Assembly (NCBI RefSeq): GCF_020012125.1
Contig: NZ_JAIFAG010000001.1
Coordinates: forward strand, 2,976,001 to 3,040,000
Origin: Hymenobacter psoromatis
GTDB taxonomy: Bacteria; Bacteroidota; Bacteroidia; Cytophagales; Hymenobacteraceae
Length of the DNA stretch: 64,000 bases
Reading direction: 5' to 3'
Shown here: piece after piece, positions 15,662-19,205 of the stretch
How the letters are laid out: each line of letters starts with the position of its first letter
Numbering within the stretch: position 1 is the first letter of the stretch
Notes under the pieces: generated by a model
Told to the model about the DNA's origin: nothing
The model's database searches: none
What the model saw: the letters and a program-made list of their open reading frames with translations, nothing else
Program-made: the position numbers and the translations under genes

Positions 15662-16540
15662 TCAACGCGGGCGGCGAAAGGCTTCGGGGGTCATGCCTAC
15701 GTGCTTTTTGAAGGCCCGACTGAAATACGACGCTTCGGCGTAGCCCAACGCCTCGGCCAGCTGGGCCACCGAATCGGCGGAGTAGTGCAGCCGACGCTGC
15801 GCCTCGGCCATCACGCGGGCCAGGATGAGGCTGCGGGCGGGGCGGCCCACTACGCGCTGGCACACGGCCGTGAGGTGGTTGGGACTCACATGCAGCGCAT
15901 TGGCGTAAAAAGCTACCGTTTTCTCGTGCCAGAAATGCTGATTGAGCAACTGGCTGAACCGGCGTACCTGTTGGCGGCCCAGCGCCGCGGCCGGGCCTGA
16001 GGCCACGGGGTAGCCGCGCGCGGCTAGCTCCAGCACTAGGAACAGATAGGCGGCTACCACCTCCTCGTCGGGTTCGGGGCGGGGCGGCGCTACCTCGGCC
16101 CACAGCTGGGCCAGCAGCGGCGCAATGTCGTTGTGGCCCGGCGGCAGGTACACCACCGGCAGCTGGCCGGGGTCGAAGAAGGGGTAGCCGTGCAGGCGGC
16201 CGGCCGGGTAGCGTTGCTGGTAGAAGCCAGCCTCGAAAAACACGATGTAGCCCGCCGCGTCGGCGCTCAGCGTCCAGCCGTGCACCTGCCCCGGTGCCAG
16301 AAAAAACAGCGCCCCCGGCCGCAGCTCATACGCCTGCAAATCAATGGTGTGCGTGCCCCCGCCCCGCGTGAGGTAGAGCAGCAGGTAAAAATCGTGCGTG
16401 TGCGGCGCGCTCACCCCCGGAAACCGCGCCGCGTGGGTTTCGAGCTGCTGCACGTAGTAGGGCCGGCGGCTGGCCGGGCCGGTGGCCTCGGCGGGCGGAA
16501 AGGCGGCCAGCGGCAGCACGGGGAGGGTAGCGGCTTTCAT
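15662..16540 (-). CDS. AraC-family transcriptional regulator
   Basis: A 292-residue regulator. The N-terminal half has a cupin-like ligand-binding part (PHTHDFYLLLYLTRGGGTHTI, then LRPGALFFLAPGQVHGW). The C-terminal 100 residues have two helix-turn-helix motifs (FYANALHVSPNHLTAVCQ and SVAQLAEALGYAEASYFSRAFKKHVGMTPEAFR), the AraC/XylS DNA-binding domain. It is a cytoplasmic activator or repressor with an unknown effector. The nearest gene downstream on the same strand is DUF983, 87 bp away with its own candidate promoter, so there is no obvious target next door. Confidence 0.9.
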   Translation of the reverse strand: MKAATLPVLPLAAFPPAEATGPASRRPYYVQQLETHAARFPGVSAPHTHDFYLLLYLTRGGGTHTIDLQAYELRPGALFFLAPGQVHGWTLSADAAGYIVFFEAGFYQQRYPAGRLHGYPFFDPGQLPVVYLPPGHNDIAPLLAQLWAEVAPPRPEPDEEVVAAYLFLVLELAARGYPVASGPAAALGRQQVRRFSQLLNQHFWHEKTVAFYANALHVSPNHLTAVCQRVVGRPARSLILARVMAEAQRRLHYSADSVAQLAEALGYAEASYFSRAFKKHVGMTPEAFRRPR

Positions 16541-16608
16541 AGCGGACGCAAGAAACTACTTCGCCCGGCAACTACCGCTCCCCGGTTTTTTGTAGCGCCG
16601 GCCGCCAG

Positions 16609-16616
16609 TAGCTTTG
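16609..16616 (+). promoter_or_regulatory. Candidate -7 box (TAGCTTTG) of the decayed gene
   Basis: An exact TAnnTTTG match 24 bp upstream of the orphan ATG at 16640, with a TTTG ending at 16592 (16-base spacing, rather short). It appears to be the surviving promoter of the truncated gene that follows. Confidence 0.35.
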
Positions 16617-16639
16617 CCCCCGCCCCTACCCCCCCTCCC

Positions 16640-16681
16640 ATGCTCGAACGCCTCCGCATCCAAAACTTCAAGTCCTGGTAG
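16640..16681 (+). pseudogene. 5-prime remnant of an SMC/RecF-like ATPase gene (13 codons)
   Basis: The ATG opens MLERLRIQNFKSW and then meets TAG. This is the typical start of AAA/RecF-like ATP-binding proteins, in which the first strand (LRIQNFKSW) leads within about 25 residues to a P-loop. Here no P-loop or further coding follows; only a terminator and the next gene's end remain. A -7 box and a leader with a CCCTACCCCC run precede the ATG, so promoter, leader and first codons are kept while the rest of the gene is gone. The family is inferred from a very short peptide, so only moderate confidence is justified. Confidence 0.5.
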
Positions 16682-16723
16682 GATACCAGAAGAAATGTCC
16701 CGGCTCCGCAGCAAATAATCACT

Positions 16724-16760
16724 AAAAAAGCACCTGCCGAACCCGGCAGGTGCTTTTTTT
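16724..16760. terminator. Bidirectional rho-independent terminator
   Basis: A stem of GCACCTGCC pairing with GGCAGGTGC is flanked by an A-run on the left and a T-run on the right, giving a perfect intrinsic terminator in both directions. It ends 19 bp from the stop codon of the aminopeptidase gene (minus) and would also stop transcription from the gene remnant on the plus strand. Confidence 0.92.
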
Positions 16761-16778: not shown

Positions 16779-19205
16779 TTAGCGAGTGCCCCTGGCCGGG
16801 CGGCCATCGGGGTTGGGCTTGTCTTCCTTGCGCTGCATAGGCGAGGGTGGGGCGGGCTTATCCACGGTGCCGGGGGTAGCCACGGCTGCCTGCTGCATGG
16901 GGTTGAGCGGCTGCTGGGCGTTGTTACCCGCTTGCCCGGCCTGGAACATCTCGAAGCGCGAGGCCACCGGCTGGCGGGGGTAGGCGTTGTTACTCAAATC
17001 GGTGTCGGCGGTTTGCTGGTAAGGGTCAATCACGAACGACACCACGTTTTTGGGCGACACGATAATCTTGGTCACCTCCTCATTATTCTTGCGCCAGATT
17101 TCGGCCGGAATATTCACCAAATCCTGCGTGCCGTCGTCGTAGGTCATCTGAATGACTACCGGCATTACCAGGCCACCCACGTTGCGCAGGCTCAGCTCGT
17201 AGAGGTTCAGGTTGCCGTTGAGGCGCTGCTGCTGCTGGGGGCTGAGCGTTTTCAGGTACTGGAAGTAGCGCTGCTTGTCGGCCTCCGTCACGGCTAGTGG
17301 GTCGTAGCCGTTGTAGAAATCCTTCAACTCGGGCTTCTCGTCCACAGCGGTTTGCTTGATGTCGGTGGCGTTGCGCTGGGCCGAGAGGGTAGGCACCTGC
17401 GCCTGGCGCTCCTGCTGAAGACGGGCGTTTTCGAGGCCGGGATTCTTGGTGTTGGCGCGGTAATACTTCACGCCTTCCAGCGAGATATCGCAGCGGTCGG
17501 TGCCGTAAAACCAGCCGCGCCAGAACCAGTCCAGGTCCACGGCCGAGGCGTCCTCCATCGTGCGGAAAAAGTCGGCTGGCTGCGGGTGCTTGTAGGCCCA
17601 GCGCGTGGCGTAGGTCTTGAAGGCGTAGTCGAACAGCTCGCGGCCCATCACCGTCTCGCGCAGGATGTTGAGGGCCGTAGCGGGCTTACCGTAGGCATTA
17701 TTACCAAACTGCAACACCGACTCCGAGTTGGTCATAATCGGCGTTTGCAGGCTCTTATCGGTGCGCATGTAGGCCACGATGTTCTGGGGCTCGCCGCGCC
17801 GGCTGGGGTAGCCGCGCTCCCATTCCTGCTCGGTCAGGTACTGGCAAAAGGTATTCAGGCCCTCGTCCATCCAGGTCCACTGGCGCTCGTCCGAGTTCAC
17901 AATCATCGGGAAGAAGTTATGGCCCACTTCGTGGATAATCACCGAAATCATCCCATATTTCCGGTCGGCCGAGTAAGTGCCGTCTTTCTCGGGCCGGCCG
18001 CCGTTGAAGCAAATCATCGGGTACTCCATGCCGCCCACCGGCCCGTGCACCGAGATGGCCACCGGGTAGGCGTAGGGAATGGTGAACTTAGAATACGTCT
18101 TGATGGTGTGGGCCACCACCTCCGTCGAGTATTGGCCCCACAGCGGGTTGCCCTCCTTGGGGTAGTAGCTCATGCAAAGCACCGACTTGCCGCTTTCGGT
18201 AATGCCCATCGCATCCCAGATGAATTTGCGCGAGGAGCACCAGGCAAAGTCGCGCACGTTTTGGGCGGCGAAGGTCCAGGTTTTGGTGCCGGTGGCGCGG
18301 CTGCTTTCGTTGCGCGTGGCCTCGTCCTGGCTCACGATGAGCACCGGCTTTTTGGCCCCGCGGGCCTGCACCAGGCGCTGGCGCTGGGCGCTGGTCAGCA
18401 CCTGGTCGGGGTTTTGGAGCGTGCCGGTGGCCCCCACGATGTGGTCGGCGGGCGCGGTAATGCTCACCTTATAATTACCGAAGGGCAGCGTAAACTCGCC
18501 ATTGCCCAAAAACTGCTTGTTCTGCCAGCCCGTCGCGTCCGAATACACCGCCATGCGGGGGTAAAACTGCGCGATTTCGTAGAGGTAGTTCTTATCAGTC
18601 GGAAAGTACTCGTAGCCGCTGCGCTCATTTATCTTGAGCTGGTCGTTGATGTTGTAGCTCCACTTGATGCCGAAGGCCACCGACTGCCCCGGCCGCAGGG
18701 GGGTAGGCAGGTCGATGCGCATCATGGTGTGGTTGATGACGTGCTGGAGCGGCTGCCCGCCGGCCGTGGTCACGGCCGTTATTTTGTAGCCACCATCAAA
18801 CTCGGCCGTGGCCAGCTGGTTGTCCAGCTCCTGAAACGAGAAGCGACCGGTGGTAACCTGCGCCACGTTGGTGGCCGTCGTCATCGAGTTCTTGGCCAGA
18901 ATGTTCTGGTCGAGCTGCACCCAGAGGTAGGTCAGCACGTCGGGCGAGAGGTTGGCGTAGGTAATCGTCTCCGAGCCGGTGATGGCCTGCTTCTGGTCAT
19001 CGAGGCTCACCTTGATGTTGTAGTCGGCGCGCTGCTGCCAGTACCGCGGGCCGGGCGCGCCGCTGGCGGTGCGGTACTCGTTGGGGGTCGGCAGCAGCGT
19101 TTCGAGCTGCGCGAACTTATCGGTACCCGAGTTGGTGGTCTGGGCCCGGCCCAGCAGCGGGGCCAGCAGCAGCCCCAGCCCGGCGGCTAGTAGCGAAATG
19201 CGCAT
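16779..19205 (-). CDS. M1-family (gluzincin) metallopeptidase
   Basis: An 808-residue secreted zinc peptidase. Residues 1-22 are a signal peptide ending GRAQ. The N-terminal beta domain covers about 50-300. The catalytic domain has the GAMEN-like GGMEYP at 391-396, the zinc site HEVGH at 425-429 and the third ligand Glu448 in WMDEGLN. A long C-terminal part ends in a Pro/Gln-rich low-complexity tail (MQQAAVATPG, then KPAPPSPMQRKEDKPNPDGR). The family removes N-terminal residues from peptides; Bacteroidota have several secreted forms of this length. The gene is a single unit ending in the strong terminator at 16724-16760. Confidence 0.9.
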   Translation of the reverse strand: MRISLLAAGLGLLLAPLLGRAQTTNSGTDKFAQLETLLPTPNEYRTASGAPGPRYWQQRADYNIKVSLDDQKQAITGSETITYANLSPDVLTYLWVQLDQNILAKNSMTTATNVAQVTTGRFSFQELDNQLATAEFDGGYKITAVTTAGGQPLQHVINHTMMRIDLPTPLRPGQSVAFGIKWSYNINDQLKINERSGYEYFPTDKNYLYEIAQFYPRMAVYSDATGWQNKQFLGNGEFTLPFGNYKVSITAPADHIVGATGTLQNPDQVLTSAQRQRLVQARGAKKPVLIVSQDEATRNESSRATGTKTWTFAAQNVRDFAWCSSRKFIWDAMGITESGKSVLCMSYYPKEGNPLWGQYSTEVVAHTIKTYSKFTIPYAYPVAISVHGPVGGMEYPMICFNGGRPEKDGTYSADRKYGMISVIIHEVGHNFFPMIVNSDERQWTWMDEGLNTFCQYLTEQEWERGYPSRRGEPQNIVAYMRTDKSLQTPIMTNSESVLQFGNNAYGKPATALNILRETVMGRELFDYAFKTYATRWAYKHPQPADFFRTMEDASAVDLDWFWRGWFYGTDRCDISLEGVKYYRANTKNPGLENARLQQERQAQVPTLSAQRNATDIKQTAVDEKPELKDFYNGYDPLAVTEADKQRYFQYLKTLSPQQQQRLNGNLNLYELSLRNVGGLVMPVVIQMTYDDGTQDLVNIPAEIWRKNNEEVTKIIVSPKNVVSFVIDPYQQTADTDLSNNAYPRQPVASRFEMFQAGQAGNNAQQPLNPMQQAAVATPGTVDKPAPPSPMQRKEDKPNPDGRPARGTR

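Follow-up and report, generated by a model that had tools for sequence, protein, structure and literature searches.

A short open reading frame lying between an AraC-family regulator gene and a convergent M1-family aminopeptidase gene of Hymenobacter psoromatis is very probably a scar left when the middle of a two-gene operon was deleted. This operon, a candidate module for phage defence, would have encoded an ATPase and a PIN-like protein. The frame was found in a stretch of 64,000 nucleotides, the whole of which is hereafter referred to as the window. Judged from the sequence, this is an ordinary loss event, since HEC-03, the family to which the operon would have belonged, is a known candidate defence system, and the event left an unusually clear footprint. 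So little remains of a lost defence operon that its scar is difficult to identify. In this case, the two operon edges and the copies at the same address in relatives document cleanly how one candidate system has been present, has decayed, and has disappeared within one genus.

Remnants of two genes in the window

The features of the locus are as follows.

15662-16540, minus strand: AraC-family regulator gene, the left flank of the scar (Pfam HTH_18 and AraC_binding).
16589-16616, plus strand: promoter-like element of the presumed lost operon, consisting of TTTG, 16 bases, and TAGCTTTG, with the -7 box at 16609-16616.
16640-16687, plus strand: 5' remnant (codons 1-16) of a HEC-03B-like ATPase gene, which shares 46 of 48 bases with G104 and the same number with G010.
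16686-16718, plus strand: 3' remnant of a HEC-03A PIN-like gene, PEEMSRLRSK and the stop TAA, in a frame different from that of the ATPase remnant.
16724-16759, no strand assigned: terminator-like hairpin from the terminator scan, separating the scar from the convergent M1 gene.
16779-19205, minus strand: M1-family aminopeptidase gene, the right flank of the scar (Pfam Peptidase_M1).

The first-pass annotation had described a -7 box, a C-rich leader, an ATG, a short peptide, and a stop, and these elements were confirmed in the sequence: downstream of the box and the leader, the ATG at 16640 is followed by MLERLRIQNFKSW and then by a TAG at 16679-16681. It had also likened the peptide to the start of RecF/SMC-like ATPases. 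This likeness held for the DNA, 46 of the first 48 bases being the same as in the full ATPase genes of two relatives, G010 and G104. The TAG, created by one of the two differences over these 48 bases, corresponds to a Gln codon in both relatives. When the segment 16541-16779 was used as the query of a DNA search against 120 genomes of the genus, 27 genomes were matched, including the window's own. The best foreign matches (G080, G010, and G104) span the start of the open frame, and many of the weaker matches fall in the hairpin part. The E-values of the start of the frame against the full ATPase genes were 2.5e-17 (G010) and 3.1e-17 (G104). The shortness of the frame, only 13 codons before the stop, might suggest a chance likeness to a RecF/SMC-like start. 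However, the existence of copies at this locus in relatives refuted a chance frame, and with 46 of 48 bases matching the genes of two relatives and the tail of the partner gene following, the probability left to this explanation is negligible.

The second remnant overlaps the ATPase remnant by two bases (CC). The PIN-like gene of G010 ends with PEEMAKLRNK and a stop at the corresponding place, and 7 of the 10 residues are identical to those of the window. The decapeptide of the window, which was picked by eye before scoring, scored 40 when compared with the C-terminal ten residues of 16 PIN-like proteins, whereas the runner-up among the 2716 stop-anchored 10-mers in the six frames of the window scored 29. 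At the DNA level, 23 of the 33 bases of the tail agreed with G010, and the E-value of the match between the tail plus hairpin and the G010 DNA was only 8.9e-4. The length from the ATG to the last stop is 79 bases in the window, compared with 1844 bases in G104 and 1857 in G010, so that about 1.77 kb is absent between the two operon edges. Since the 3' end of the PIN-like gene thus adjoins the 5' end of the ATPase gene, the locus appears to be an operon with its middle removed rather than a truncated gene. Both ends are homologous to the operon that relatives carry at this locus, and the middle is absent, as in a deletion pseudogene. The genome of the window gave no ATPase match at an E limit of 1e-40 and no PIN-like match at an E limit of 1e-4. 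The proposal that the stub is the scar of a lost ATPase gene was accordingly supported, the ATPase being found at the same locus in relatives and missing from this genome, but it was incomplete: the PIN-like gene was lost as well, and its last 10 codons remain. Against a scar speak that the PIN-like tail is short (10 codons), that it was chosen ahead of testing, and that the upstream promoter box is not common to the relatives.

The introduced stop was also considered as the sole lesion of an otherwise present gene, and this was rejected as no further ATPase or PIN-like sequence was found in the genome at the limits used.

We propose that one internal deletion by illegitimate recombination took out the middle of the operon, and the CC overlap is what such a joint might leave. 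A point change would have created the stop in the remaining ATPase start, either before or after the deletion. The lost operon would have been a phage defence module in which, as far as the families indicate, the ATPase would act as the sensor of infection and the PIN-like nuclease as the effector that it releases. The loss may have been recent, or may have concerned a copy acquired not long before, because the start of the scar keeps 46 of 48 bases, compared with an identity of only approximately 79-81% between two core genes of the window and their counterparts in these relatives (DNA identity of the two genes to the window, 0.807 for G010 and 0.790 for G104).

The operon and its scars in relatives

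A full-length ATPase gene between the AraC and aminopeptidase genes, which the first-pass annotation had proposed to look for in relatives, is present in G010 and G104, where it is directly followed by the PIN-like gene. The order in the gap is -7 box, ATPase (HEC-03B), PIN-like protein (HEC-03A), and hairpin. The ATPase begins with MLERLRIQNFKSWQDTGDMAFG, and the PIN-like gene has 164 or 162 codons and starts with MRYLIDTNV or MHYLIDTNV (G010/G104). The G104 ATPase matched AAA_15, AAA_21, and DUF3696 in Pfam, and with PADLOC it matched HEC-03B with an E-value of 7.6e-137 (residues 1-449 against positions 1-456 of the 458 of the model), whereas NCBIfam gave no match above cut-off. The suggestion that the lost gene was of a defence kind is borne out to the extent of this library label. 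The PIN-like partners of G010 and G104, the two scanned out of 16, matched HEC-03A with E-values of 1.5e-35 and 6.8e-30, respectively. G104 is the only carrier at the AraC-M1 locus with both frames whole. The G010 ATPase gene (L023:5726-6970) has a premature stop at codon 415 in an otherwise complete pair; hence, the G010 copy may be failing too.

The ATPase was found in 16 of the 120 genomes of the genus, and since the PIN-like gene adjoins it in all 16, the HEC-03 pair is a real unit. A PIN-like match was obtained in 17 of the 120, the 17th (G048) being a fragment of residues 96-162. This lone C-terminal piece of about 67 codons (L061:5006-5206) lies away from the M1 gene of its genome and is another scar of the same kind of operon. 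An order-wide HEC-03B scan detected 8 of 390 genomes, all of them Hymenobacter, at an E limit of 1e-60, a threshold that may hide distant members. Relatives of the ATPase at 39-43% identity were held by 8 of 72,556 plasmid records (Aeromonas, Azotobacter, and Rhodococcus). In viral contigs, a PIN-like gene stands beside an ATPase relative in 4 of 42 loci at about 40% identity (L155-L158); the four partners and the two ATPases that were scanned matched HEC-03, the L155 ATPase scoring 818 bits against HEC-03B. Among 80 M1 loci from named genomes, no ATPase, PIN-like, or AraC match was found, and the M1 control was positive in 80 of 80.

The M1 aminopeptidase itself was matched in 120 of 120 genomes of the genus. 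Its 3' neighbourhood was compared in 37 genomes, namely the window plus 36 of the 119 relatives, which were selected mainly for the similarity of their M1 protein. AraC (at least 74% identity) was located near the end of M1 in 11 of the 37 neighbourhoods, the window counted, and the AraC query gave nothing at an E-value of 1e-4 in the other 26 within the stretch examined. At these 11 AraC-M1 loci, the pair is present in G010 and G104 and scars are present in the window, G080, and G078. G082, G107, G083, G028, and G027 are without trace, or six genomes counting G101, whose gap holds a different gene homologous to one in G104. The scar of G080 retains about 43 codons' worth of the ATPase start, with the ATG gone and an internal loss of 12 bases. 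That of G078 retains ten bases of the ATPase start (ATGCTCGAAC) before other sequence. As this other sequence is also found in G080, the two scars probably descend from one decaying scar.

A tree was built from two core genes in 15 taxa, of which three were represented by a single gene, and rooted at the midpoint. G078 and G080, G010 and the empty G082, and G104 and the empty G083 were sisters with a support of 100 each, the window formed a branch of its own, and several of the supports were weak (45-80). Because the carriers G010 and G104 have empty sisters, the pair appears to have undergone several losses or gains, between which the tree does not discriminate. The case for a former pair in the lineage of the window comes from the scar itself, since the pair is patchy and the sister genomes of the carriers are without it.

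In another explanation, the lineage of the window never had a working pair, and an already broken copy arrived when its AraC-M1 segment recombined with that of a relative. The start of the scar is indeed closer to G010 and G104 than the core genes are, and the G104 locus looks like two versions joined by recombination. Between the 554-codon gene and the ATPase of G104 (L024:6378-6576) lie a fragment of the M1 3' end (97 columns, 87.6% identical to its own M1) and a fragment of the AraC start (90 columns, 82% identical to its own AraC), and a complete AraC gene and the 554-codon gene precede both fragments. We infer that such a layout would result if two versions of the AraC-M1 segment were joined head to tail. 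However, the flanks of the window were not unusually close to those of G010, G104, and G080 (76-85% DNA identity), and among the matches listed for the 120 genomes, both scar edges were found in one place only in the window. We consider the import of a broken copy improbable, and deletion within a resident operon is preferred.

The retained promoter-like box bears on a further explanation, that of a functional leader peptide or small transcript acting, for example, over the divergent AraC gene. A promoter-like box, an ATG, and a hairpin are all in place in the window. The -7 box lies 31 bases ahead of the ATG in the window, G010, and G104, and each of the three scars (those of the window, G080, and G078) has retained it. 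Among the other 14 copies of the genus, examined with a relaxed pattern, a similar box was found at 28-30 bases in 7 and at other distances only in 4, and none was found in 3. The upstream TTTG occurs in the window only and is absent from G010, G104, G080, and G078. The two-box motif (TTTG, 16 bases, and TAnnTTTG) had 3 matches in 64 kb against 0.90 expected in shuffles, and is weak taken alone because this count of 3 was reached in 6 of 100 shuffles.

As for the strong terminator that had been proposed next to the peptide, a strong hairpin is present at 16724-16759, but in the scan it counted as a terminator for the minus strand alone; a T run follows on the plus strand too. Two terminator-like sites were found in the 501 bases scanned, compared with 1.0 expected in shuffles. 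As hairpins of the same type are present in relatives without any trace of the operon, the predicted hairpin works for the convergent aminopeptidase gene no less than for the presumed lost operon. Any transcript from the box would stop at the hairpin after about 140 bases and would code for nothing conserved.

The proposed short leader peptide was not upheld by the relatives: the start codon is lost in G080, G078 keeps only ATGCTCGAAC and differs after these ten bases, and six of the 11 AraC-M1 genomes show no trace. Neither the peptide nor its ATG was conserved among relatives, and a conserved leader peptide was therefore rejected. A functional leader or small transcript is thus a very remote alternative to the deletion scar.

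The ATPase centre and the PIN-like partner

The 16 HEC-03B ATPases (L023, L024, L026-L033, and L055-L060) have conserved ends and a divergent middle. The mean pairwise amino acid identity was 0.85 in columns 1-72 and 0.81 in columns 241-420, but only 0.22 in columns 73-240 (0.40 for the DNA), where the alignment is uncertain. The middle is AT-rich, with a GC content of 0.31-0.39 compared with 0.34-0.56 and 0.38-0.60 in the two ends; the ATPases of G050 and G012 are AT-rich throughout, and the contrast hardly holds there. With pairs that are not independent, the pairwise identities of the N end and the C end (the latter taken to column 494) were correlated with a rho of 0.70, whereas the middle gave 0.17 and 0.16 against either end. 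In G025, G064, and G103, the N segments are identical in protein, yet any two of the middles differ by at least two thirds. This pattern may reflect exchange of the middle segment or, alternatively, very fast change in place.

A broader reading would make the AraC-M1 gap an exchange site of Hymenobacter, into which allelic recombination repeatedly brings HEC-03 and from which deletions remove it, while a swappable AT-rich centre of HEC-03B sets recognition, so that species swap specificities and keep the machine. We put this forward as a tentative idea, on balance a doubtful one. The set of 16 copies with conserved ends and a hypervariable centre makes the question of what the ATPase senses testable.

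In Pfam, the PIN-like partners matched PIN_3 below cut-off. The residues invariant in the 16 PIN-like copies include D6, E51, D112, D133, and D135, which, by comparison with PIN motifs, may form the catalytic set. The fold was modelled, with four sequences as input, for a HEC-03A relative from a viral contig, and the mean pLDDT was 90 for the best of five models and 44 for the worst. With VIA-align, mostly PIN/VapC chains were placed on top at Z 7-8.8 (best VapC chains, 8.8 and 8.7), where by the program's own note Z under 8 may be common and Z 8 was reached by 4 of 997 chains. The rows other than PIN were a chain of a Cas9-PcrIIC1 complex (row 3) and cyclodehydratase (rows 16 and 21). Foldseek gave no hit with an E-value below 0.001 for this model and placed PIN chains at ranks 5 and 8. 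When solved structures were searched by sequence, the 16-row PIN-like alignment yielded 7 matches, none of them useful; the best, with an E-value of 0.064, was a designed TIM barrel. The partner is likely a nuclease.

Comparison with known systems

HEC stands for Hma-embedded candidate (PMC12988326), and the HEC systems were defined in a preprint (doi 10.1101/2024.01.29.577857, as cited by PMC12988326). In the relevant passage of PMC12988326, several HECs are described as active in assays; HEC-06 is named there and HEC-03 is not. In a passage of PMC13356809, HEC-03 is described as a subtype that was encountered exclusively in rumen genomes from a single cattle breed. The pair found in the relatives fits HEC-03A and HEC-03B over nearly the whole length, with the genes adjacent and the ATPase gene first. 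In contrast, the window itself holds no member of HEC-03 and no working system, but only the two outer edges, namely 16 ATPase codons and the last 10 PIN-like codons.

In the literature, nothing was found that joins DUF3696, a PIN domain, and defense, or Hymenobacter, a defense system, and a pseudogene, and the only match for DUF3696 was unrelated by its title. With PADLOC, NsnB and PDC-M55A were second and third to HEC-03B for the ATPase (E-values of 2.4e-63 and 1.3e-57); the literature matches listed for NsnB concerned unrelated uses.

PARIS (AriA), AbiLi, GajA, PtuA, and MADS3 contain an ATPase of the same broad AAA_15/AAA_21 kind as HEC-03B. Their PADLOC scores for the ATPase were much weaker than that of HEC-03B (AriA, 1.2e-26; AbiLi, 8e-14; GajA, 4.9e-10), and MADS3 and PtuA were far below the NCBIfam cut-offs. 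The effectors of these systems differ from the PIN-like partner of HEC-03. On the side of the partner, VapC-type PIN toxins provided the chains that VIA-align placed best against the predicted fold of the viral HEC-03A relative. VapC is paired with a small VapB-like antitoxin, whereas the partner of HEC-03A is a large ATPase encoded upstream.
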